64,000 nucleotides of DNA from Echinicola marina (lineage in GTDB: Bacteria > Bacteroidota > Bacteroidia > Cytophagales > Cyclobacteriaceae), in contig NZ_CP080025.1 in assembly GCF_020463795.1 (NCBI RefSeq), positions 5,019,501 to 5,083,500 on the forward strand. Reading direction: 5' to 3'. Every line of letters starts with the position of its first letter. The first letter of the stretch is position 1. The translations under genes were made by a program, and so were the position numbers. Shown piece after piece: positions 22,166 through 33,820 of the stretch. The notes below the pieces were generated by a model. It was not told where the DNA came from, made no database searches, and saw nothing but the letters and a program-made list of their open reading frames with translations.

Positions 22166-23578
22166 CTATTTTGGCATTGGTGCCATAAAATTGGTTTTGA
22201 TTTCATCGATTACTTCACCATTTTGAAGTAATAATAATTCCACTTCCTGGTTAATTTCTGTTACCTCATTGGCATCGATTACCAGAAAGAACCTACCCTC
22301 CACCTTGGATTGTCCATCCAATATCCAATTTCCTTCATCACTTGCCTCTACCATATATTTATCGTTGGATGATTTTATTTGTACGTTTTGTACATCAAAG
22401 GTTTTGTTTATGAAGGTCACCTCGTAAAGGTTACTGATTTGACCATCAGTCCTTTCTTGATAAGTCATTCCTCTAAACCTAGTAATCGTAGCTGACATTT
22501 CAGTTCTGGTCACGAGCAATCCCACAAAGGCTACTACTAGAATCAATAAAACAGCTATATAACCTATTACCCTCGGTGTGATCAATTTTTGATGTCCTTC
22601 CTTGATACTATTTTCAGAAGCATAACGAATCAAGCCCTTGGGTCTATCCACCTTCACCATCACCTCATCACAAGCATCTATGCATGCGGTACAGTTGACA
22701 CATTCCATTTGTACCCCATTCCTAATATCAATGCCAGTAGGACAAACCTGCACGCATAAACTACAATCTACACAATCTCCTTTAGCGGATTTTCCGGGGT
22801 CTTTCTTATTGATTTTCCCCCTCGGTTCTCCCAGTAAGTAATCATAGGATACATTGATGGAATTGGTGTCCAATAAAACTCCTTGCAGCCTACCATAAGG
22901 ACAAACCACTGTACAGGCCTGCTCCCTAAACCAAGAAAATACAAAGAGAAAGATCCCGGTAAATGCCAGTAAGCCCATGAATCCTGTTAAATGGGCCGAA
23001 GGCGGACTGCTGATGATTTCCAAGGTTTGATCCACCCCTATAAGGTAGGCCATTACCAGATGGGAAATCAAAAGGGAGATGAGCAAGAACAATGTCATTT
23101 TGCCTCCCTTTTTCAATATTTTTTCCTGGTTCCAAGGCTGGGCATTCAAACGTTTTTGTTGATTGGCATCCCCTTCAATCCAATACTCGATTTTGCGGAA
23201 CACCATCTCCATAAACAGGGTCTGAGGACAGGCCCAACCACAAAATACCCTACCAAAAACTACTGTAAACAGGATGATAAAGACAAAGAATATAAGCAAC
23301 AAGAACAACAGAATATGCGTATCCTGAGGCCAAAACACCTGCCCGAATATGATAAATTTCCTTTCGAAAATATTCAGTAAAAGAAAAGGTTTTCCTCCAA
23401 TCTTTAGAAATGGACCTGCAAATAAAATCGCTAATAGAATCCAGGAAACATAAGTTCTCCATTTATAGAAAAAACCACTTACCTTTTTGGGATATACCCA
23501 ATTCCTTCCTCCATCGTCCTTTACTGTGGAAAGGGAATCTCTAAAGGCCTCTGATTTATTTTGTTGATCCTGGGACAT
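22166..23578 (-). CDS. ccoG: Cytochrome cbb3 accessory iron-sulfur protein CcoG/FixG
   Basis: 470 aa. Membrane helices span about 35-60, 80-105, 155-180 and 190-215, followed by a 4Fe-4S ferredoxin-like segment with CVDCSLCVQVCPTGID and CVNCTACIDACD near residues 265-310. A further helix near 335-355 and a C-terminal FixG Ig-like domain complete it. An additional CGWACPQTLFMEM motif in the NapH-like part is also conserved. CcoG is linked to copper reduction for the binuclear centre of cbb3 oxidase. It is 47 bp after ccoP in the same operon. Confidence 0.95.
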   Translation of the reverse strand: MSQDQQNKSEAFRDSLSTVKDDGGRNWVYPKKVSGFFYKWRTYVSWILLAILFAGPFLKIGGKPFLLLNIFERKFIIFGQVFWPQDTHILLFLLLIFFVFIILFTVVFGRVFCGWACPQTLFMEMVFRKIEYWIEGDANQQKRLNAQPWNQEKILKKGGKMTLFLLISLLISHLVMAYLIGVDQTLEIISSPPSAHLTGFMGLLAFTGIFLFVFSWFREQACTVVCPYGRLQGVLLDTNSINVSYDYLLGEPRGKINKKDPGKSAKGDCVDCSLCVQVCPTGIDIRNGVQMECVNCTACIDACDEVMVKVDRPKGLIRYASENSIKEGHQKLITPRVIGYIAVLLILVVAFVGLLVTRTEMSATITRFRGMTYQERTDGQISNLYEVTFINKTFDVQNVQIKSSNDKYMVEASDEGNWILDGQSKVEGRFFLVIDANEVTEINQEVELLLLQNGEVIDEIKTNFMAPMPK

Positions 23579-23625: not shown

Positions 23626-24552
23626 TTAGCCATTAACTTGTACGCTATCTGAAACAGTCTCCTCTCCGCCTGTTTCTCCATCAGTTTCACGAACATATTC
23701 TTCACCTTGAGGTTCCTTAGGATTGGACGGAGTCGTTCCCTCTAGTGAGAGTACAAAATTCGCTACTTGCTGGATCTCTTCCGGACTTAACTGGTCCTGC
23801 CATGGAATCATCCCCTTCTCTGGAACACCATATTTAATTACCGTAAATACATCAGAAATACTTCCTCCATGCAACCAAAATACATCCGTCAGGTTTGGTC
23901 CTACTCCACCGCCTCCATCTGCGGCATGGCAGGCCACACAGTTATTTTGAAAAATGGCACCACCAATCTCTAAGACCGTCTGTGATTGATCAAAGGCAAC
24001 ATTGCTTTCATCGATCGAAGCCAGGGCCAAGGCTTTCCGCTCCTCAGCAGCAATGGCTTCCTCTGCCAGTTCAGCCTGATATTCCTCCGTAGGTGATTTA
24101 CCAAATCCCACATTGGTATTGTTCACCAAATAAACTACCGCAAACAATATGGAACCATAAAACACGTACTTTAACCAAGGAGGCATAAAATTATCCAACT
24201 CAACTATACCATCATAACTATGATCCATTTGTATCTCCTCTTCATCCTCAATAGGCTTAAGCTTTCCTGTGACGAATTTCTCCTTGAAATTTTCCCACCA
24301 GCTTGGCTCTTTGGCCATTTCAGGATTTTCCTGATTTAATATATTGACAATAAAGCTGGCCAGATAAATCAATAAAATCATCAACAAGACCATCAGTCCA
24401 AGGACCACCATGATGATGATCAATAAGGTCAACTGACTGCTATCCATCTCTCCCAATGATTCCATCCATCCCCTTTCAGCCTCTTGGGCCATCGCTGATT
24501 GGGTGATAAGTGCCAACATGGACACCATAAGTGCTATTTTAGTTTTTTTCAT
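23626..24552 (-). CDS. ccoP: cbb3 oxidase CcoP subunit, monoheme form
   Basis: 308 aa. An N-terminal hydrophobic segment resembles a signal (MKKTKIALMVSMLALI), a second membrane helix spans about 40-72, and the CcoP_N helix is near 125-150 (DNFMPPWLKYVFYGSILFAVVY). One cytochrome c domain (about 190-275) follows with a single CVACH heme site near residue 204 and GMIPWQDQLSPEEIQQVANFV. Proteobacterial CcoP carries two hemes; this form has one, as I recall for other Bacteroidota. The C-terminal tail is acidic. The start overlaps the ccoQ end by 14 bp. Confidence 0.92.
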   Translation of the reverse strand: MKKTKIALMVSMLALITQSAMAQEAERGWMESLGEMDSSQLTLLIIIMVVLGLMVLLMILLIYLASFIVNILNQENPEMAKEPSWWENFKEKFVTGKLKPIEDEEEIQMDHSYDGIVELDNFMPPWLKYVFYGSILFAVVYLVNNTNVGFGKSPTEEYQAELAEEAIAAEERKALALASIDESNVAFDQSQTVLEIGGAIFQNNCVACHAADGGGGVGPNLTDVFWLHGGSISDVFTVIKYGVPEKGMIPWQDQLSPEEIQQVANFVLSLEGTTPSNPKEPQGEEYVRETDGETGGEETVSDSVQVNG

Positions 24553-24741: not shown

Positions 24742-26895
24742 TTATTTAGCGATACTTTCTTCTGATGTCGGAGCATCCGTTTTCTTGATGTCCGTTCCTA
24801 GTCGCTGTAAATAGGCGATCAATGCCACGATCTCAGCTTCTGGTTTTACTTCTATACCTGCATCTGAAAGTCCGGAAGCAATTCCCTGGGCTTGTTCGTG
24901 CAGATCTTTCATGGCCTGTTCATCTGCATAACCATCTGGATACGGTACCCCGAGTTGTTGCATGGTCCTAATTTTGTCAGGCATGTCTAAATGGTCCATG
25001 GAATTGGTGATCATCCATGGGTAAGAAGGCATGGTGGAGCCGGGAGACATGGTCCTTGGGTCTAACATATGATGATAATGCCAACTATCTGGATATTTCT
25101 TTCCTACCCTGTGCAAATCTGGCCCAGTACGCTTAGACCCCCAAAGGAACGGTCTGTCATAAACGAATTCACCCGCTTTGGAATATTCACCATATCGCTC
25201 CGTTTCAGACCTGAAAGGCCGAATCATCTGTGAATGACATCCTACACAACCATTAGAGATATAAAGGTCTCTTCCCTGCAGTTCTAGCGGAGTATAGGGT
25301 TCTACACTGCTGATAGTTGGTACATTGGATTTCACCAACAAGGTTGGGACAATCTCAATCACTGCTCCTATAAGTATGGCTACTGTGGCCAAAATGGTAA
25401 AGAAGATGGGTTTTCTCTCCCAGGCATGGTGCCAGTATTCACCTTTTTTCGGTACAAACTTGGTAAGGGCAGGTGCCTCATCAGGCTCTTCAGCTTGGAA
25501 AACACCAATTTTGGAAGTCTTGATAAGGTTATAAACCATCACGATGGCCCCAGTCAGGTAAAGTACCCCACCAAATGCCCTTAGCATATACATGGGAACA
25601 ATTTCAAGCACTGTTTCAAGGAAATTTGGATAGGCCAATCTTCCCATCTCATTGAACTCTTTCCACATCAAGCTTTGAGTCAAGGCTGCGACATACATAG
25701 GCAGGGCATAGAAAACTATCCCGAGGGTACCCAACCAGAAGTGGGTGTTCGCCAATTTAGTAGAGTACAATTTTGTTTTCCACATCTTAGGCCATAGCCA
25801 GTAAAGCATACCAAAGGTCAAGAAACCATTCCAGCCCAAGGCGCCAATATGTACGTGTGCAACGATCCAATCAGTATAGTGCGCAATGGCGTTTACATTT
25901 TTCAAGGATAATAAAGGCCCTTCAAATGTAGCCATACCGTAAGCGGTCACCGCCACGACCATAAACTTAAGTACCGGGTCAACCCTCACTTTGTCCCAAG
26001 CTCCTCTTAGTGTCAATAGGCCATTGACCATACCGCCCCAAGATGGAGCAATTAACATCACCGAGAAAGCTACCCCGAGCACCTGGGCCCAGTTGGGCAA
26101 TGCGGTATATAACAGGTGATGAGGCCCTGCCCAGATATACAGAAAGATCAAGGACCAGAAGTGAACGATAGAAAGCTTATAGGAATAAACTGGCCTATTG
26201 GCTGCTTTGGGAAGGAAATAATACATCAATCCCAAATAAGGTGTGGTCAAGAAGAAAGCCACGGCATTATGACCGTACCACCACTGAACCAAGGCGTCTT
26301 GAACACCGGCATAGGCAGAATAACTTTTAAAGAAAGAAACTGGCAAGGCCAAAGAATTAAAAATATGCAGTACTGCGACGGTTACAAATGAGGCCAAGTA
26401 AAACCAAATGGCCACATACATATGTCTTTCCCTACGCTTAAGCAATGTACCGATCATATTGGCACCAAATGCCACCCACACCACAGCAATACCAATATCA
26501 ATAGGCCATTCCAATTCTGCATATTCCTTTGAAGTGGTCAAACCTAGCGGCAAGGTGATCGCTGCAGCTAGGATAATCAGCTGCCAGCCCCAGAAATTGA
26601 TCCAGCTAAGCGCATCACTCCACATCCTGGCCTTCAGCAACCGAGGCATGGAATAGTACACGCCGGCGAAAATGGCATTTCCCACAAAGGCAAAAATCAC
26701 CGCATTGGTATGCAAGGGACGAATTCTACCAAATGTGGTATAAGGATTTCCCATGTTGGCCTCGGGAAGAAAAAGCTGGATGGCAGCCAATATCCCAACC
26801 AGCATTCCGACTAAGCCCCAAACTATGGTGGCTGCTCCAAAGTACTTTACGATTTTATTATCGTAACTGAACTTTTCTAGTATTACTTCTGACAT
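24742..26895 (-). CDS. ccoNO: Fused CcoN-CcoO subunit of cbb3 cytochrome c oxidase
   Basis: 717 aa. Residues 1 to about 470 are the CcoN heme-copper catalytic subunit with about twelve membrane helices; PLHTNAVIFAFVGNA, WYGHNAVAFFLTTPYLG and DWIVAHVHIGALGWNG carry the histidine ligands for heme b, heme b3 and CuB. Residues from about 500 are CcoO: one membrane anchor, then a monoheme cytochrome c domain with NGCVGCHSQMIRPFRSE near residue 550. It is the terminal oxidase core, with high oxygen affinity in characterised relatives. The fusion is common in Bacteroidota. It is four bases downstream of ccoS. Confidence 0.96.
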   Translation of the reverse strand: MSEVILEKFSYDNKIVKYFGAATIVWGLVGMLVGILAAIQLFLPEANMGNPYTTFGRIRPLHTNAVIFAFVGNAIFAGVYYSMPRLLKARMWSDALSWINFWGWQLIILAAAITLPLGLTTSKEYAELEWPIDIGIAVVWVAFGANMIGTLLKRRERHMYVAIWFYLASFVTVAVLHIFNSLALPVSFFKSYSAYAGVQDALVQWWYGHNAVAFFLTTPYLGLMYYFLPKAANRPVYSYKLSIVHFWSLIFLYIWAGPHHLLYTALPNWAQVLGVAFSVMLIAPSWGGMVNGLLTLRGAWDKVRVDPVLKFMVVAVTAYGMATFEGPLLSLKNVNAIAHYTDWIVAHVHIGALGWNGFLTFGMLYWLWPKMWKTKLYSTKLANTHFWLGTLGIVFYALPMYVAALTQSLMWKEFNEMGRLAYPNFLETVLEIVPMYMLRAFGGVLYLTGAIVMVYNLIKTSKIGVFQAEEPDEAPALTKFVPKKGEYWHHAWERKPIFFTILATVAILIGAVIEIVPTLLVKSNVPTISSVEPYTPLELQGRDLYISNGCVGCHSQMIRPFRSETERYGEYSKAGEFVYDRPFLWGSKRTGPDLHRVGKKYPDSWHYHHMLDPRTMSPGSTMPSYPWMITNSMDHLDMPDKIRTMQQLGVPYPDGYADEQAMKDLHEQAQGIASGLSDAGIEVKPEAEIVALIAYLQRLGTDIKKTDAPTSEESIAK

Positions 26896-26898
26896 ACT

Positions 26899-27084
26899 TT
26901 ATTTGGTTTTAGGTGACGGTTTAGGCTTAACCGTTTTTTGGTTTTTATGTGTATCAAATAGAATTCTTACCGACGGGGTGTAAGTATCGTCAAACTGACC
27001 TTTCTTCATGGCCCTGAAAAACAGGAACAAAAAGCTAGAAGCCAAAACCAAACTCACCCCGATCAAAATGAATATTACTTCCAT
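26899..27084 (-). CDS. ccoS: cbb3 oxidase assembly protein CcoS
   Basis: 61 aa with a membrane helix (about 2-24, VIFILIGVSLVLASSFLFLFF) and the conserved GQFDD motif at about 33-37, followed by a basic tail. CcoS is needed for cofactor insertion into cbb3 oxidase. It overlaps the ccoI end by 10 bp. Confidence 0.93.
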   Translation of the reverse strand: MEVIFILIGVSLVLASSFLFLFFRAMKKGQFDDTYTPSVRILFDTHKNQKTVKPKPSPKTK

Positions 27085-29510
27085 AAATAATTGTTTTTAC
27101 TTCCCTTTCTCATCGCTAGATAATTGATCATAACTGTGGTAAATACCACCACCGAAATACTACTCAGTGGCATCAAAACCGCACAAATAACAGGACTTAG
27201 CAGGCCTTGGACAGCCAAGCTGATCCCAACAATATTGTATAGAAAGCTGAGTACAAAACTCGCCTTAATCACATTCCTGCTTTCCTTTGCCAATGCTATA
27301 AATTGAGGTAAATGGCCTATTACATCGGCGTCCATAATAGCATCACTGGCAGGAGAGAAATGAGTGGATTGACTGGTTACTGCAATCCCCACCCTGCTTT
27401 CCTGCAAGGCACCTGCATCATTCAATCCATCTCCAACCATCACCGTCTTATTCCCTCCATCATTCAAGAATTTGATGTATTGCAGCTTTTCTTTTGGGCT
27501 TTGGTTAAAATTCATCTTCACCGCTGGCCCAAATGCCTTTTGAAGATTTTCGCGGTCCTGGTCCTGATCACCGGAAAGCAAGTGAACTTGGCCCATATCT
27601 TTCAATTGATCCATGGTCTTAACCACTCCATTCCTCAATCCACTTTGGATATGAAAGTATCCCTTTACTTCTCCCCCGATGGATAAATAAATCCTATTAC
27701 CAAAACCCTTGGTTCTAACATCACCGATCCCCAACCACTTGGCCGAACCTAAGCGCACTATCTCGCCATTATAAATAGCTTCAATCCCCTTTCCAGAAAA
27801 CTCTTCTATCCCTTCCACATAAGCAGGCTTAATACCTCCCAACCATACATTTAGCCTATTACTTAGGGCATGAACGGAATGTTGGACCATAGCTTTGAGT
27901 ACTGATTTATGCTCATCGTCCAAACAAAACCCTATATAGTCTACTTTAGCCGCTGCAGGATCTGTAAGCGTTCCTGTTTTATCGAAAATATAGGTATCTG
28001 ATTTTGCCAGTTGCTCTACCACATGGCTGTTCTTCAAATAAAATTTCCTATTCCCAAAAACCCTCAATGTATTACCCAAGGTAAAAGGAGTGGACATCGC
28101 CAATGCACATGGGCAGGCTACAATTAAAACACTGGTGAATGTTTTCATGGCCAAGGAAACATCCCTTTGAATCCAAAAAGCTAGTGAACCAAAAGCCACC
28201 ATCAGCACCACCAAGGTAAACTTCCCACTGATGGCATTGGCCAATGATTCCAGTTCCTTTGATTTTTCGATTTGAAAACTATCTTGATTCCATAAATCAG
28301 TAAGATAACCTTGGGATGGGGCTTTTTGTACATTCAAAAGCAAAGCGCCTGCCTGCTGCCTACCTCCTGCATAAATCAAGGATCCTTTCTTCACAGAAAC
28401 AGGCACTTCCTCCCCTGTCACAAAACTGTAATCAATTTGGGCCTCTCCTTCCAGCAACAAACTGTCCGCTGGAATCAACTCACCATGACGAATCTTCAAG
28501 GTATCCCCTACTTTTATTTTAGGAAGCGAAACAACCTCTTCCCCTTTATTCCCCAAGCGGGTTACAGCCAATGGGAAGTAGGACTTATAATCCCTGTCAA
28601 AAGCAAGACGGTCATAGGTTTTTTGCTGAAAATATTTCCCGATCAATAGAAAAAACAATAGCCCCCCTATAGAATCGAAATAACCGCTTCCCCCTAACGC
28701 TATTACTTCATAAAGGCTATAAACAAATAAGGAAATGATTCCCATAACAATGGGGACATCCATATTAACACGACCAGAACGCAGAGAGTACCATGCTGAC
28801 CTATAGTAATCTGTAGCTGAATAAAATATAACCGGAAGTGACAAGGCTATATTGAGCTGGACAAAGAGGCCTCTAAAATTCTCTTCCAATAATGACACTT
28901 CACTGAAATACTCAGGCAAACTGAAAAACATCATATTGCCAAAGCAAAATCCAGCTACTGCCAATTTATAGATCAATCTCCTGTCAATTCTATCCTTAGG
29001 CTTTTTCTCCAATGCATCTAACTGGATGCTAGGCTCATAGCCGATTTTGGACAATAACCTTACCAGCTCTTTAAGGTTTAGGGACTTATGAAGGAATTTG
29101 ATGTGTACCTCTTTTTTCACATAATCCACCCTAGATTCAAAAATATGCTCATTTAACCTATGTAGATTTTCCAATAACCATACACAGGAGGCACAATGTA
29201 TCGCAGGGATATCAAATGAAATATGCGTTTCCTTCTCGTTTTGAAAATCTATTAGTTTTTGGATTACTTCAGGTTCTTCTAAGTAATCAAATCGATTGAC
29301 TGATTTATTATTGTTGGTGTTTTTTATACCCGGCTTCTCACCATATTCATAATAACTGCTAAGGCCATTTTCATTCAACACTTCATAAACCAACTTACAG
29401 CCTGGACAACAAAAATCCTTTTCATCATAGCGAAGGGACTCGTCCAAACACTGTTCTCCACAGTGGAAGCACAAAGTATTATTTCTTTCTTTAACTTCCT
29501 TCATGTTCAT
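27075..29510 (-). CDS. ccoI: Copper-transporting P1B-type ATPase CcoI
   Basis: 811 aa. An N-terminal Cys-rich metal-binding domain (Cys14, 17, 21, 34, 35, 38; PF12156 type) is followed by an HMA domain with HCASC (Cys106/Cys109). Membrane helices precede and follow the actuator domain (FVTGEEVPV). The membrane metal site is VACPCALAMSTP, the phosphorylated Asp lies in FDKTGTLTD, and the hinge is MVGDGLNDAGAL. This CcoI/FixI type exports copper to the periplasm for cbb3 assembly. It is the first cco gene proper, 70 bp after the USP-like gene, and likely shares the promoter upstream of that gene. Confidence 0.94.
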   Translation of the reverse strand: MNMKEVKERNNTLCFHCGEQCLDESLRYDEKDFCCPGCKLVYEVLNENGLSSYYEYGEKPGIKNTNNNKSVNRFDYLEEPEVIQKLIDFQNEKETHISFDIPAIHCASCVWLLENLHRLNEHIFESRVDYVKKEVHIKFLHKSLNLKELVRLLSKIGYEPSIQLDALEKKPKDRIDRRLIYKLAVAGFCFGNMMFFSLPEYFSEVSLLEENFRGLFVQLNIALSLPVIFYSATDYYRSAWYSLRSGRVNMDVPIVMGIISLFVYSLYEVIALGGSGYFDSIGGLLFFLLIGKYFQQKTYDRLAFDRDYKSYFPLAVTRLGNKGEEVVSLPKIKVGDTLKIRHGELIPADSLLLEGEAQIDYSFVTGEEVPVSVKKGSLIYAGGRQQAGALLLNVQKAPSQGYLTDLWNQDSFQIEKSKELESLANAISGKFTLVVLMVAFGSLAFWIQRDVSLAMKTFTSVLIVACPCALAMSTPFTLGNTLRVFGNRKFYLKNSHVVEQLAKSDTYIFDKTGTLTDPAAAKVDYIGFCLDDEHKSVLKAMVQHSVHALSNRLNVWLGGIKPAYVEGIEEFSGKGIEAIYNGEIVRLGSAKWLGIGDVRTKGFGNRIYLSIGGEVKGYFHIQSGLRNGVVKTMDQLKDMGQVHLLSGDQDQDRENLQKAFGPAVKMNFNQSPKEKLQYIKFLNDGGNKTVMVGDGLNDAGALQESRVGIAVTSQSTHFSPASDAIMDADVIGHLPQFIALAKESRNVIKASFVLSFLYNIVGISLAVQGLLSPVICAVLMPLSSISVVVFTTVMINYLAMRKGSKNNYLWK

Positions 29511-29580: not shown

Positions 29581-30201
29581 TTATGCCAAATAAAACGACA
29601 GGTTATCATACCAAAACCCTCCTTTATAAAAGTGAAATAGGACTTTAGCCAAATCAGCTTGGTAAGCTTTAGAGGTTACTAGCATGGTGGATTTGTTTTT
29701 GGTAGCATAAGACCAGAAATCCCCGATTTTCCTAAAGTTGAATTTTATAAAGCTGGTTTCACTGGTATAATTCCTGATTAATTGAATCAGTGCCTGCTCT
29801 TCTTGTAGCTTCGATTTAGGAATGAAACTTGGAGAAATTATAGTGGCTTGGCTATGCTTAATATGTAATTCAAACTTCTCTAGAAATCCATGGATGATAT
29901 GGGCAGAATCTTGGGTTCCATCATAGTGAAACAGGAGTTTTTCGAAGGACAACTGCTGGTCAAACAACAATAATGGAATGGCGCAAGGCTTTTTCTCCAG
30001 CATCTGCGGCTGCTCCTGCCCATGAAGCCAGTCCAGTACCTTGGGCAGCTTGGCCATTATCATATAGATATTTTTCTCCTCATGATTCAAAACTCCCTCA
30101 ACCGGCCCATGATCAAAAAAGTCCCGCTGCATCTTCTGCTCGTATACAGGAGCCAATATATCAGCGGGTATTTCCAGGTAATTATGAATGTTGCCTTTCA
30201 T
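29581..30201 (-). CDS. USP-like protein at head of cbb3 operon
   Basis: 206 aa, soluble, no signal peptide. The middle part has LLFHYDGTQDSAHIIHGFLEKF, which resembles the nucleotide-binding DGS segment of universal stress proteins, and a later MLVTSKAYQADLAKVLF. Otherwise the match is weak, so I call it USP-like rather than a firm family member. It lies 70 bp before ccoI on the same strand and 78 bp after an FNR-type palindrome, so it is likely the first gene of the micro-oxic respiration operon. Its function is unknown. Confidence 0.6.
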   Translation of the reverse strand: MKGNIHNYLEIPADILAPVYEQKMQRDFFDHGPVEGVLNHEEKNIYMIMAKLPKVLDWLHGQEQPQMLEKKPCAIPLLLFDQQLSFEKLLFHYDGTQDSAHIIHGFLEKFELHIKHSQATIISPSFIPKSKLQEEQALIQLIRNYTSETSFIKFNFRKIGDFWSYATKNKSTMLVTSKAYQADLAKVLFHFYKGGFWYDNLSFYLA

Positions 30202-30225: not shown

Positions 30226-30291
30226 CAAATTTAATCTGCTTTGAGCCGAGGATTTATGACTTTTAAAAAGCCAAAAACTGATAAAAATCAT
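30226..30291 (-). promoter_or_regulatory. Candidate FNR-type promoter of the USP-cco operon
   Basis: On the plus strand, CTGATAAAAATCAT (30278-30291) contains TGAT-N4-ATCA, the core of an FNR box. On the minus strand, an exact -7 element TAAATTTG lies at 30233-30226. The distance from palindrome centre to the TA is 51.5 bp, placing the site near -62.5. No TTTG -33 box lies between them, which fits an activator-dependent promoter. Confidence 0.65.
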
Positions 30292-30340
30292 ATTTCAAAC
30301 AAAAGCCCAAACAATATCTGTTTGGGCTTTTGTTTGAAAT
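30292..30340 (-). terminator. Terminator of the FNR-like gene
   Basis: Perfect 22-bp inverted repeat (30292-30313 with 30319-30340) around a 5-nt loop, 16 bp after the stop of the FNR-like gene. The stem includes T/A-rich outer parts that give a T-tract in both directions. Confidence 0.9.
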
Positions 30341-30356
30341 ACAGGATGTACCAGCA

Positions 30357-31067
30357 TCAATTATTATAAAAATCAGATAGCCTGGCCAATCCTTTTCTGT
30401 CTAAAACAATAATTTTTTTCCCTTCAAACTTTATCAGCTTATCTTTTTTAAATTCAGATAGCAATCTGATCACCGTTTCGGTGGCGGTTCCTACTAAACC
30501 CGCTATTTCTTCCCGGGTCAGGACCAGATCAATTTTTCTATTTTCACCGCCATCTACCCCATAGGAATCGGAAAGTTTGATCAAAGTAAATGCCAGCCTT
30601 TCCCTGATGGTTTTTTGGGTAGCATCGGTCAATTGCTCCTCCATCAATCCCAAACTTTGGCATACTGCTTTGGTCAATCTTCTATGAAAATTATTGTCCT
30701 CAGCGATAAGCTTTAGAAAAGTTTCTTTGGGAATAAAACATATTTTTGCATCCTCCACAATGGTGGCTGAATTCAAGTAAGCCTCTTCACCCAGCAAAGA
30801 GGTATAGCCTAGAAAGTCTCCTTTTTGTGCCAATCGGATAATTTGTTCCTTCCCATTAGATGCTGTTTTAAAAACTTTTACAATTCCAGAGCTTACACAA
30901 AAAACCCCCAAAGGTTTTGTGCCCTCATAAAACAGCATCTGGCCCTTTTTATGGGATATAAGATTTTTGCTGTCCGATAAATTACATAAATGCTCTTCAG
31001 ATAAACCTGAAAACATGGAAAATTTACGGCTTAAGCATAATTCACATGGTGTATTCTTTATTGTCAT
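30357..31067 (-). CDS. Crp/Fnr-family regulator resembling oxygen sensor FNR
   Basis: 236 aa. The N terminus has Cys8-X2-Cys11. A cyclic-nucleotide-binding-type beta-barrel (about 20-130) contains Cys110 in AKICFIPKETF, and the winged helix (about 150-230) has recognition helix GTATETVIRLLSEF. Against E. coli FNR from memory, Cys8, Cys11 and Cys110 align with cluster ligands Cys20, Cys23 and Cys122 at a constant offset of 12. The fourth ligand (Cys29) aligns with Ser17, but Cys28 is nearby. The DNA-contact Glu and Arg (E197, R201) of the FNR/CRP type are kept. An oxygen-labile 4Fe-4S cluster is plausible, not proven. The promoter carries an FNR-like palindrome, suggesting autoregulation. Confidence 0.88.
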   Translation of the reverse strand: MTIKNTPCELCLSRKFSMFSGLSEEHLCNLSDSKNLISHKKGQMLFYEGTKPLGVFCVSSGIVKVFKTASNGKEQIIRLAQKGDFLGYTSLLGEEAYLNSATIVEDAKICFIPKETFLKLIAEDNNFHRRLTKAVCQSLGLMEEQLTDATQKTIRERLAFTLIKLSDSYGVDGGENRKIDLVLTREEIAGLVGTATETVIRLLSEFKKDKLIKFEGKKIIVLDRKGLARLSDFYNN

Positions 31068-31091
31068 GAACCTAAAAATTAATTAACATCA

Positions 31092-31136
31092 CAAAGCTAT
31101 GTTATAAACCTATTAAAAAAAGATGACTTTTATCAT
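31092..31136 (-). promoter_or_regulatory. Candidate autoregulated promoter of the FNR-like gene
   Basis: Palindrome ATGACTTTTATCAT (31123-31136; core TGA-N6-TCA) and an exact minus-strand -7 element TAGCTTTG at 31099-31092. The centre-to-TA distance is 30.5 bp, so the site centre falls at about -41.5, the class II activator position. The palindrome overlaps the stop of the upstream YceI-like gene. Confidence 0.65.
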
Positions 31137-31738
31137 AATAAATTCCCTTTAGTGTTATTTGACGATTCAGATTTTAAAAATAATTTGAACTCAACGGTGA
31201 CGCTGTCTTTTACCTTGATGGCTCCAAAGAACTTCCTAGGGGCTTCCAGACCAAAATCTGAAAACAAAAATGAGTGGCTGCCTTCAAGTTTTAAAACCCC
31301 ATCATCTGTTTTTTGTATTTCACAGTCTATTTTAATTTTTTTATGAACCTGAACCAAAGTAACGATAGCCTCCCCACTGATGACATTACCCATACCATGG
31401 ACTTTTTCAAGATGTAAAAATTCCATACCAATATAGGGGTGCTGATCAGCCTTAATAGTAGTCTGAAAATCCTTGGTCATTATATTATTGGCACAATCGA
31501 AACTGCTTGCAGGCACTTTTATCTTCCCGCTCCAGCTGATGTTGCCGTCACTTGAATACCTTTCATAAATTTTGTCATCACCAAAATAATTATCAGACAT
31601 GCAATAGTAGCTATTGACATTCGTAGTACCTGCAATACCCAGCTCACTTTCCTCAAGAATATGCCACATGATTATTTTAGGTTCCTTTGGCTTAATCGGC
31701 AAAAGAAGAACACCAATAAATGCGAGTAATTTAAACAT
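31133..31738 (-). CDS. YceI-like secreted protein
   Basis: 201 aa with a short hydrophobic N terminus (FKLLAFIGVLLLPI) serving as signal. The body has YceI-type features: WHILEESELGIAGTTNVNSYYC, IKVPASSFDCAN, MEFLHLEKVHGMGNVISGEA, and a final IKVKDSVTVEFKLFL strand. Sequence is more divergent than the two other YceI proteins here. It lies 94 bp after the porin-like gene, separated by a hairpin, and its 3' end overlaps the FNR-like palindrome. Lipid binding is inferred from the family. Confidence 0.7.
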   Translation of the reverse strand: MFKLLAFIGVLLLPIKPKEPKIIMWHILEESELGIAGTTNVNSYYCMSDNYFGDDKIYERYSSDGNISWSGKIKVPASSFDCANNIMTKDFQTTIKADQHPYIGMEFLHLEKVHGMGNVISGEAIVTLVQVHKKIKIDCEIQKTDDGVLKLEGSHSFLFSDFGLEAPRKFFGAIKVKDSVTVEFKLFLKSESSNNTKGNLL

Positions 31739-31779
31739 AATACCTTGATTTATAATTGAACCATTTTATGAATGCAAAA

Positions 31780-31808
31780 GAAGAGTACCGATCTGCCCGA
31801 TACTCTTC
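31780..31808 (-). terminator. Hairpin after the porin-like gene
   Basis: Stem GAAGAGTA / TACTCTTC (31780-31787 with 31801-31808), followed on the minus strand by TTTTGC. It is 25 bp after the stop of the porin-like gene and likely causes full or partial termination before the YceI-like gene. Confidence 0.65.
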
Positions 31809-31832
31809 CAAGGTTTATGAGATCATAAATGT

Positions 31833-33101
31833 TTAGAAGCTTATCGCGGCTTCAATATTCAGTCCGTCAAATTTTGCTCCGTTGTATTTAGAGTCTGCCG
31901 CAAATCCTTCATATTTTTGGTTTACGTATTCAATTTTAGCAACAATGTTTTTGGTCATAAACCAGCCACCGCCTATATTGAACCTTTCAATGGCTATACT
32001 TGGGTCATCTGCATTTGCCTCCCCTTTTACTTTATTATACCTACCTCCGAAATATAATTGCTCACGAGAACCAAACCTGTACAGCAATTCGCCTGCAAGT
32101 TGGGTATACTGACCATCACCCTGTTCCTCACTGTTCATGGCTGATTCATATATCCCGAAAAATTCCAATCCCTTGTATTTCACAAATGGATTAATTTGAA
32201 TGGCAGTAAGTTGGTTAAATCTCGGATTAAAGCGGCCTTCAAAATCAGATCCGCCATCTTCTATTGTATGCAGCACACTATAATATCTAGATCCTGCACG
32301 GTCGCCTCCATATAGTGAGGTTCCAGTAGTAAGTCCTTGGTTGGTATACCATGAACCTGTCAACCTAAACCTCAAATCTTCAGCAAGATAATCATCATAA
32401 CCTACTTTTCCATAGAACGAAAGCTTATTGTCAGAATTTTGGTTGGAGACCACAGACTGATTGAGTTTTCCGTTAGAAATAGCTAGCATAGCCAAGAACC
32501 CGTTATTTTGTAGGGTTACTTCGGCAAAAGCCTCGGTAGCAAAGGAATCCATGATATAATTCCCTACGAATGGGTTAAAAATAGCCCTGGCATTATCTGT
32601 TCTTCTAAAGTGTGCATCACCATAGTTGATCTCATCCATCCCTACCTTAATGGTAGCATATTTCATCAATCCCTCTAGAAATCCTTCAGAAACAAAGTCC
32701 AATTTATCCAACTGTAAATATCCCCCTTTTACCCAAGCTTCTGAGTGGTGTCTTGCAGAAAGATAGGTTCTCAAATGCATTCTGACACCGTCCTCTAATT
32801 GAACATCAAGGTTTAGGTTGGCAGTAGGAAGGTTTAGATTTGACTCCAGATCCACCAAATTATTCAGGCTATTTTCCTGATTAATTCCCTGAAATTGTAA
32901 CGCGAAATCACCGCCTACTTTTACCCTCAGCCCCTCAAAGGTAGCAACTGAATCTTTGCTGGTCTCAAAAACATTGACCCCATAGCTATTATCAGCTCTG
33001 TAATATTGTAAAGACTTTTGGGCCTGTACCACAGAAGTAGCTGATAATAATACCGCAAAGAATAAGATGGCATAATTGATGCCTTTTTTCATAGTATTCA
33101 T
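31833..33101 (-). CDS. Porin-like outer-membrane beta-barrel protein
   Basis: 422 aa. The signal peptide ends VVQAQK (about residue 28). The mature part consists of amphipathic strands with a phosphate-porin/alginate-export-like feel: VKVGGDFALQFQGINQE, DGVRMHLRTYLSARHH, GGYLQLDKLDF, RFNIGGGWFMTKNIVAKIEYVNQ, closing on an aromatic residue (IEAAISF). It is probably a substrate channel, but the substrate is unknown. The start at 33101 (MNTMKKG) or three residues on are equally possible. It lies 34 bp after a YceI gene and likely shares its promoter. Confidence 0.78.
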   Translation of the reverse strand: MNTMKKGINYAILFFAVLLSATSVVQAQKSLQYYRADNSYGVNVFETSKDSVATFEGLRVKVGGDFALQFQGINQENSLNNLVDLESNLNLPTANLNLDVQLEDGVRMHLRTYLSARHHSEAWVKGGYLQLDKLDFVSEGFLEGLMKYATIKVGMDEINYGDAHFRRTDNARAIFNPFVGNYIMDSFATEAFAEVTLQNNGFLAMLAISNGKLNQSVVSNQNSDNKLSFYGKVGYDDYLAEDLRFRLTGSWYTNQGLTTGTSLYGGDRAGSRYYSVLHTIEDGGSDFEGRFNPRFNQLTAIQINPFVKYKGLEFFGIYESAMNSEEQGDGQYTQLAGELLYRFGSREQLYFGGRYNKVKGEANADDPSIAIERFNIGGGWFMTKNIVAKIEYVNQKYEGFAADSKYNGAKFDGLNIEAAISF

Positions 33102-33135
33102 GGCTTTTTGCTTTGATTATGTGTTTGTTGATTTA

Positions 33136-33705
33136 TCAGTTGGGTTGAAATTGAGCTTTAAATGTTAACTTCAATTCATTACCTGTTTTAATAGTGTTGA
33201 ACATGGCTGTTGGAGGGTCAAGCTTATATTCCGAGAAGGTGATATCCTGATTCCCTTCAAAAACCACTGTTCCATTGTTCAACTTATAGTTAACTTCCAT
33301 TATTACATCCTTAGATTGTCCGGCTATGGTCATTTTCCCTTTTGCTTTGATCTTGTCAGCGCTGATTTGATCTACACTCACCAGTTCATAGAGAATGTTT
33401 GGATTCTTTTTCTGATTTAAACATTCATAAGCATTCTTGTCCATGCTGGACTTTCCGCTCTTTAAGCTCTCTACAGGAAGTATGATTTTTAATGACGAAA
33501 TGGATGTTATTTCTGAACCATTTATGGTCACGTCCATATTTCCTTTTACTCCCTCCTTCGACACCATTTCCCAATCATGGATGGTAGAGGTTCCCTCCAC
33601 TGTAAATACCTGAGAACCTGAAAGGCTATAATTTCCCTGGGCCTTTAGCTGAAATCCTAGCACCACAAATAGTGCTGATAGAATTAGTAATTTCGCTGTC
33701 TTCAT
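33136..33705 (-). CDS. YceI-family periplasmic protein
   Basis: 189 aa. The signal peptide ends LKAQGN. The YceI fold is clear: FTVEGTSTIHDWEMVS with the conserved STIHDW, LKIILPVESLKSGKSSMDKNAYECL, KAKGKMTIAGQSKDVIMEVNY, and the closing GNELKLTFKAQF. It binds lipids of the isoprenoid type in characterised relatives. It is the first gene of a YceI-porin unit, behind a candidate FNR-type promoter, so it is probably induced under low oxygen (inference). Confidence 0.9.
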   Translation of the reverse strand: MKTAKLLILSALFVVLGFQLKAQGNYSLSGSQVFTVEGTSTIHDWEMVSKEGVKGNMDVTINGSEITSISSLKIILPVESLKSGKSSMDKNAYECLNQKKNPNILYELVSVDQISADKIKAKGKMTIAGQSKDVIMEVNYKLNNGTVVFEGNQDITFSEYKLDPPTAMFNTIKTGNELKLTFKAQFQPN

Positions 33706-33754
33706 AATTGAAAAGGTTATGCTATTGAAAACTTCTTTTGCTTAATTGATATAA

Positions 33755-33820
33755 CAAATGTACAGTCCTTGAAACGGTGAAAACATGAGAAAAAGAAACT
33801 AAAAACAAGACTTTTGTCAT
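33755..33820 (-). promoter_or_regulatory. Candidate FNR-type promoter of the YceI-porin unit
   Basis: Palindrome AAGACTTTTGTCAT (33807-33820) and an exact minus-strand -7 element TACATTTG at 33762-33755. Centre-to-TA distance is 51.5 bp, identical to the USP-cco promoter. The sequence differs from the FNR-gene site ATGACTTTTATCAT at only two positions. Confidence 0.62.

Follow-up and report, generated by a model that had tools for sequence, protein, structure and literature searches.

Do the FNR-type sites around a Crp/Fnr gene of Echinicola marina mark out a low-oxygen regulon, and why do they stand at two different distances from the promoter elements that follow them? The question is raised by a stretch of 64,000 nucleotides (bases 5019501-5083500 of a genome that consists of a single contig of 5,693,670 bases; the whole stretch is referred to here as the window), where three such sites precede the Crp/Fnr gene itself (fnr), the cco operon for a cbb3 oxidase, and a unit headed by a gene for a YceI-domain protein. 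As judged from comparisons of sequence, the regulon is real: it is FNR-type, conserved and coherent, and its tandem promoter layout was not found described in the open-access literature searched. In our assessment it is likely to be a low-oxygen regulon with tandem FNR-type promoters, under the control of the FNR-type protein that the window encodes at 30357-31067. The sites follow the dyad TGAY-N4-RTCA, and each is trailed by TAnnTTTG, which PMC9723704 and PMC7366714 give as the -7 element of Bacteroidia sigma-A promoters. The elements concerned, with distances in base pairs (bp), are these:

31123-31136, minus strand: FNR-type site before fnr, ATGATAAAAGTCAT on that strand, an exact dyad
31092-31099, minus strand: TAGCTTTG, candidate -7 element of fnr, with its TA 30.5 bp from the site centre; exact in two of the four other Echinicola loci (L031, L032)
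30278-30291, minus strand: distal FNR-type site of the cco-operon promoter, exact TGAY-N4-RTCA, centred at -63.5 if the TA lies at -12
30256-30269, minus strand: proximal site of the cco promoter, lying 22 bp further downstream than the distal one and degenerate, its right half GTCAT being intact and its left half not
30226-30233, minus strand: TAAATTTG, candidate -7 element of the cco-operon promoter, exact TAnnTTTG
33807-33820, minus strand: distal FNR-type site of the YceI-porin promoter, one mismatch, 51.5-bp spacing
33785-33798, minus strand: proximal site of the YceI-porin promoter, likewise degenerate (right half CTCAT) and 22 bp away from its distal partner
33755-33762, minus strand: TACATTTG, candidate -7 element of the YceI-porin promoter, exact TAnnTTTG

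A preliminary description of the window had reported the three sites and their minus-strand TAnnTTTG elements, and its coordinates, strand and centre-to-TA distances (30.5, 51.5 and 51.5 bp) are all correct. The TGAY-N4-RTCA consensus that it gave to all three is exact in two, the YceI site having one mismatch, and the AAAA core that it wrote into the consensus is without conservation at the fnr sites of relatives. Expressed as gaps between site and element, 51.5 bp corresponds to a gap of 45 and 28.5-30.5 bp to gaps of 22-24. With up to one mismatch in the site and gaps of 23, 24 or 45, the window holds four pairs: besides the three described, there is one at 198, which is probably due to chance. 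As for random sequence, to which the preliminary description had appealed as a yardstick, 7 of 500 dinucleotide shuffles of the window reach at least three pairs with one mismatch allowed, and none of the 500 reaches two exact pairs, as the window does; the gaps were picked after the fact, and the window statistics alone make a moderate case. Taken singly, TGAY-N4-RTCA is mildly enriched in the window (10 occurrences against 5.4 expected, with 5 of 100 shuffles reaching 10), and TAnnTTTG shows no enrichment there, standing at chance level.

The spacing was tested in 80 fnr-bearing loci of relatives (1.22 megabases), picked by protein and not by site or spacing, in which each TGAY-N4-RTCA was paired with each downstream TAnnTTTG at gaps of 0 to 120. 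This yielded 83 pairs, with 29 at gap 45 (spread over 25 loci), 28 at gaps 22, 23 and 24 (6, 18 and 4, respectively) and at most three at every other gap, the loci being related to each other and the pair counts not independent events. The control with a reversed -7 element gave 29 pairs, with no gap exceeding three. The two preferred spacings claimed for the window, about two helical turns apart, are thus recovered at 51.5 bp (29/83) and 28.5-30.5 bp (28/83). A similar preference is seen outside these loci: 5 of the 52 pairs at gaps 15-76 in the E. marina genome lie at gap 45, against 0.77 per other gap, and the five relatives with a full pair listing place 19 of 132 pairs there, the other gaps from 31 to 61 averaging 3.8 with a maximum of 7. 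At 29.5 and 30.5 bp, the E. marina genome holds two and two pairs besides that of fnr. Three pairs at 47.5 bp in the same genome were considered as a third geometry and dropped, the corresponding gap of 41 being absent among the 83 pairs of relatives. The spacing is also kept at individual promoters. For instance, the cco promoter, which lies before a gene for a protein of 206 amino acids (aa), has 51.5 bp to an exact TAnnTTTG in all 10 loci where it could be followed (the window and the nine of the 80 with a homologue), and the YceI promoter has 51.5 bp in six of six (the window and five others), its site being exact in three and carrying one mismatch in three. This conserved cco and YceI spacing reaches genera as distant as Litoribacter and Anditalea.

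In the promoters with the 51.5-bp spacing, the first site is followed at a distance of 22 bp by a second, which lies 29.5 bp from the TA and of which the promoter-side half is best kept. In the 29 composites at gap 45, which were not picked for a second site, the mean dyad match at offset 22 is 7.00 of 8 and the match is at least 6 in 25 of them; the maximum at the other offsets between 12 and 45 is 4.55. The same distance emerged from a search of 41 family genomes that asked for two dyads separated by 0-30 bases and for no promoter element: among the matches listed (150 rows), there are 122 distinct dyad pairs, of which 64 are at 22 bp, 10 at 23 and 8 at 19, and the 22-bp pairs are found in at least 22 of the 41 genomes. 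No full 22-bp dyad pair from the E. marina genome is among the matches listed, and the proximal sites in the window are degenerate. In general, the distal site forms a complete palindrome flanked by A/T-rich sequence, and the proximal site often departs from the dyad but keeps RTCAT on the promoter side.

For FNR and CRP, the known class II position is -41.5. If TAnnTTTG is placed at -12 to -5, as PMC9723704 has it for Flavobacterium psychrophilum, the tandem sites have their centres at -63.5 and -41.5, and the fnr site of the window has its centre at -42.5. The conserved TCAT of the proximal site then falls where a -33 element would be. The preliminary description had taken the two spacings for class II and class I promoters; the positions, about -41.5 and -63.5, hold, but the 51.5-bp promoters also contain the site at 29.5 bp. 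Because they carry this second site 22 bp downstream of the first, they are tandem promoters and not simply class I, and the two geometries mostly represent one architecture of paired FNR-type sites 22 bp apart.

In the case of fnr itself, the class II reading proposed for the window is poorly conserved. Of the 80 loci, 42 have an exact dyad no more than 110 bp upstream of fnr, and among these 42 a TAnnTTTG at 29.5-30.5 bp is present in eight (four exact, in L031, L032, L035 and L038, and four with one mismatch), as against 17, from several genera, with such an element at 15.5-17.5 bp (two exact, one of them in L039, and 15 with one mismatch); six loci hold both kinds and 23 hold neither. It is close to an even prospect that the FNR-type protein represses its own gene rather than activating it, the conserved site covering the core promoter. 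With the more frequent element at 15.5-17.5 bp, the site would sit at about -27 to -29, and the window and L031-L033 also carry TAGGTTTA at 17.5 bp; set against this are the exact elements at 29.5-30.5 bp in the window, L031, L032, L035 and L038, the lack of the final G in most elements at 15.5-17.5 bp, and the loci with neither kind. Autorepression therefore appears about as likely as class II activation. The fnr site of the window also overlaps the 3' end of the upstream 201-aa gene, including its last codons and stop.

Typical low-oxygen genes lie behind the sites. hemN, nrdD and cco are classic FNR targets, and all three are found among the five exact 51.5-bp composites of the E. marina genome, which precede hemN (419 bits, cut-off 325), nrdD (1084 bits, cut-off 548), the cco operon, a gene for a 611-aa protein, and a gene for an HYC_CC_PP-like protein (26.8 bits, cut-off 28) that adjoins a CusA-type metal-efflux gene, recognised by eye. 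The small regulon of low-oxygen genes predicted earlier for a Bacteroidota genome is borne out by the presence of hemN, nrdD and cco behind FNR-type sites. In Flavobacterium psychrophilum, according to PMC9723704, oxygen limitation raises cbb3 oxidase and haem biosynthesis. The 611-aa protein (L143 5070-6905; G000:C1 about 4361569, where G000 denotes the E. marina genome itself) has no Pfam or NCBIfam match. Nearby, another FNR-type site is followed by a gene for a 144-aa protein (L143 7944-8378; G000:C1 about 4364443), likewise without a family match, and it is possible that both proteins are unrecognised members of the low-oxygen regulon. A near-identical tandem composite precedes the HYC_CC_PP-like gene in E. 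marina (G000:C1:4081914-4081978), in G053 and, twice, in G067; with its efflux gene, this is perhaps a mobile metal-efflux unit with its own FNR-type promoter.

Family searches assigned further frames that come next after composites elsewhere. They include ccoN, FixH, HemA, hemN again, a P-type ATPase that scores below the heavy-metal cut-offs, Usp and Hsp20. A phosphate acetyltransferase-type protein, a pyridine-nucleotide oxidoreductase, a molybdopterin oxidoreductase, a D-lactate dehydrogenase-like protein (below cut-off) and a fatty-acid hydroxylase are also among them. So are a metallo-beta-lactamase-fold protein with rhodanese, a glycosyltransferase and a histidine kinase, along with DoxX, a short-chain dehydrogenase and a LolA-like protein. 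Additional ccoN-, ccoI- and Usp-like frames behind composites were recognised by eye only, and several of the target proteins tested by family search gave no family. No open frame of at least 80 codons starts within the allowed distance of 8 of 49 composites in one set and 9 of 31 in another. A fatty-acid hydroxylase gene lies behind an FNR-type site in E. marina (G000:C1:978786-978846, with a 47.5-bp spacing) and behind a tandem composite in L178 of G075.

How widely the tandem promoter is distributed was addressed with a composite query of 65 bases, searched on both strands with one mismatch allowed and with the reversed query as control. The composite is present in 72 of 78 family genomes, E. 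marina included, with 298 matches against 10 in the control (the control being summed by hand). A sample of 238 genomes from the phylum, tallied by hand, holds it in seven of seven genomes of the family, two of three from the rest of the order, 25 of 49 from the rest of the class (91 matches against 2 in the control), and 9 of 179 from the rest of the phylum (9 matches against 4, which is near background). The distribution within the class is uneven, the composite being carried by 20 of the 24 genomes among these 49 that lie outside a family coded f7. The tandem promoter thus looks like a trait of the class that is lost or different in part of it, and is not phylum-wide. On two contigs, G009:C262 (L212, L213, L217-L219) and G015:C12 (L214), many tandem promoters are crowded together with cco genes, and Crp/Fnr genes are also present. 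Four genomes of the same class (G281, G098, G102 and G297) carry composites that are nearly identical to each other but unlike the rest, having the form TTGAT...ATCAA and a weak second site; in both genomes inspected, a short-chain dehydrogenase gene follows (L242, L243).

Most likely, these promoters are regulated by the four-cysteine FNR-type protein of the window, a member of the Crp/Fnr superfamily with PF00027, PF13545 and PF00325 above their cut-offs. In an alignment of 24 sequences (that of the window and 23 from the 80 loci, 50-97% identical to it), Cys 8, 11, 57 and 110 are invariant, as are the recognition-helix residues E197, I200 and R201. In a profile alignment with solved FNR, Cys 8 and 11 match the CxxC and Cys 110 matches the sensor-domain cysteine. 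The E-x-x-S-R helix of FNR is not found, I replacing S in all 24 sequences with E and R kept (E-x-x-I-R). Of 107 composites, 88 have A or C as the outer base of the distal half-site and 13 have T, as in TTGAT, the core TGAY-N4-RTCA being present; a preference for A or C would fit the S to I change in the recognition helix. In the predicted model, the mean predicted local distance difference test (pLDDT) score is 71.7, with values below 50 in the N-terminus, at residues 1-7 and 12-16. Among the 78 family genomes, the 12 without a homologue at E 1e-40 have a mean of 1.75 composites (one-sided P 0.002 versus the genomes with a close ortholog, defined by E 1e-80 or better).

A number of observations weigh against a low-oxygen regulon under the control of this protein. 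With respect to the targets, two of the E. marina genes behind exact 51.5-bp composites have no clear low-oxygen role, and the YceI site is one of 15 places with one mismatch at 51.5 bp on the forward strand of that genome, the strand covered by the listing. With respect to breadth, only 5 of 25 genomes of family f7, which belongs to the same class, carry the tandem composite (counted by hand). The protein itself scores 92.9 bits with the NCBIfam Fnr subfamily model NF008365, below its cut-off of 228, and among the 24 sequences there is no conserved counterpart of the third FNR cysteine, C28 being present in 16 only; that Cys 57 serves as the replacement fourth ligand of an iron-sulfur cluster is a guess. 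Two further Crp/Fnr homologues are encoded in the E. marina genome, one of them with the E-x-x-I-R residues. Moreover, genomes with a close ortholog have a mean of 3.7 composite matches (n=40) and the others 3.9 (n=38), and two of the 12 genomes without a homologue at E 1e-40 still hold 8 and 5 composites. Because composite counts are not higher with a close ortholog, and some composites persist without a homologue, other Crp/Fnr proteins probably use the same sites in some genomes.

This leads to the alternative that the sites are real Crp/Fnr operators whose main regulator is another member of the superfamily, such as the protein encoded at G000:C1:1477835-1478506 or a receiver-domain protein at 3740045, in which case the signal would perhaps be nitric oxide, redox state or a kinase, and the tandem could hold two different members. 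One paralogue does have the same recognition residues E, I and R, and G009 and G015 carry 15 and 14 composites with best homologues of only E 8e-67 and 3e-47. We nevertheless regard this alternative as unlikely: fnr lies right next to the promoters of cco and YceI, both in the window and in several relatives, the same dyad recurs upstream of fnr in 42 of 80 loci, and hemN, nrdD and cco are genes classically assigned to FNR. A separate observation is that the paralogue at G000:C1:1477835-1478506 (L222) combines E-x-x-I-R with a strikingly cysteine-rich N-terminus.

A more radical alternative, that the motif pairs are chance combinations of short palindromes with a common, AT-rich -7 element, draws on the window itself, where the dyad is only about twofold above expectation and TAnnTTTG is at chance level. 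It is contradicted by the spacing peaks in the 80 loci and by the second-site peak at offset 22, to which are added conservation across genera, the nature of the neighbouring genes and the low control counts, and its probability is close to negligible.

On the favoured reading, a low-oxygen regulon run by the window protein, the following sequence of events can be envisaged. When oxygen is scarce, the protein would carry an iron-sulfur cluster on Cys 8, 11, 57 and 110 and would then dimerise. A first dimer would occupy the strong distal site and help another to bind the weak proximal site, and the two together would bring in sigma-ABfr RNA polymerase. The output would be the cbb3 oxidase with its copper supply, haem synthesis without oxygen by hemN, anaerobic ribonucleotide reduction by nrdD, and the YceI-porin unit. 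What the sequences show directly are the positions and spacings of the sites, their conservation, the genes beside them and the conserved residues of the protein; we infer binding by the window protein, oxygen as the signal, activation, cooperativity and the cluster ligands. More tentatively, and with somewhat more doubt than belief, Bacteroidia may have a widespread system of low-oxygen control with a promoter grammar of its own, in which the -33 contact of the unusual sigma-ABfr polymerase is replaced by a pair of abutting FNR dimers at -63.5 and -41.5, the distal dimer loads the degenerate proximal site, and Cys 57 acts as a different third ligand. If so, the tandem arrangement would give a sharp, cooperative oxygen threshold.

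Several known systems resemble this one in part. E. coli FNR acts on hemN, nrdD and oxidase genes and has its class II position near -41.5, as proposed for the system described here. Gammaproteobacterial FNR (E. coli, Aliivibrio fischeri; 5E44/5CVR) also shares with the window protein the Crp/Fnr fold, the N-terminal CxxC, the sensor-domain cysteine before 'IP', the recognition-helix E and R, and the TGAY-N4-RTCA core. Unlike it, the window protein has no conserved third cysteine, has an invariant Cys 57 and has I for S, and its presumed sites have an outer base of A or C rather than T, stand at TAnnTTTG promoters, and are paired 22 bp apart. The alphaproteobacterial FnrL and FixK-type regulators likewise drive cco and hemN-type genes through FNR-like boxes, from a different promoter type and usually with single boxes; against the corresponding NCBIfam cut-offs, the window protein reaches 75.8 of 300 and 63 of 300 bits. 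Two activator dimers per promoter are known from E. coli class III promoters, with tandem FNR or CRP sites, where the second site is usually much further upstream, whereas here the sites abut at a fixed 22 bp across many genomes of the class. Finally, the composites share the exact -7 element with Bacteroidia sigma-A promoters, which have TAnnTTTG at -12 to -5 and TTTG near -33, but the -33 region is taken here by the proximal FNR-type half-site with its conserved TCAT.

To our knowledge, little is known of how activators act on the divergent TAnnTTTG promoters of Bacteroidia. None of the open-access papers searched was recognised as describing an FNR regulon or a tandem FNR promoter in Bacteroidia, and PMC8510549, in the part available, treats metagenome-assembled genomes of Bacteroidota with a MalR motif, not FNR. 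The fixed, conserved geometry and the named neighbouring genes make this a testable question, and provide a pattern for annotating low-oxygen genes, including those of unknown function.

The genes of the window to which these promoters belong are the following:

33136-33705, minus strand: YceI-domain protein (PF04264)
31833-33101, minus strand: 422-aa protein without Pfam or NCBIfam match, 'porin' being a label of the preliminary description only
31133-31738, minus strand: 201-aa protein, YceI-like by reading only, without a Pfam match at E 0.01
30357-31067, minus strand: FNR-type regulator, 236 aa, with a cNMP-binding fold and a Crp-type helix-turn-helix (Pfam PF00027, PF13545, PF00325)
29581-30201, minus strand: 206-aa protein, first gene of the cco operon, family unassigned, without Pfam match
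27075-29510, minus strand: CcoI-type heavy-metal P-type ATPase, with Pfam domains above cut-off and NCBIfam heavy-metal ATPase models below theirs
24742-26895, minus strand: CcoNO fusion, cbb3 oxidase subunits I/II, above curated cut-offs
23626-24552, minus strand: CcoP-like subunit, below the curated cut-off
22166-23578, minus strand: CcoG accessory protein, above cut-off

Read along the minus strand, the order is thus YceI protein, 422-aa protein, 201-aa protein, Crp/Fnr gene, 206-aa protein, CcoI-type ATPase, CcoNO, CcoP-like subunit and CcoG. The 206-aa gene had been labelled as a universal stress protein, an assignment rejected here for lack of any Pfam match, even at E 0.1. Judged by the regulator, the closest named relatives are Echinicola shivajiensis and E. 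salinicaeni (97% identity). A long inverted repeat (30297-30338; CAAACAAAAGCCCAAACA ... TGTTTGGGCTTTTGTTTG), probably the terminator of fnr, runs to within a few bases of the distal cco site.

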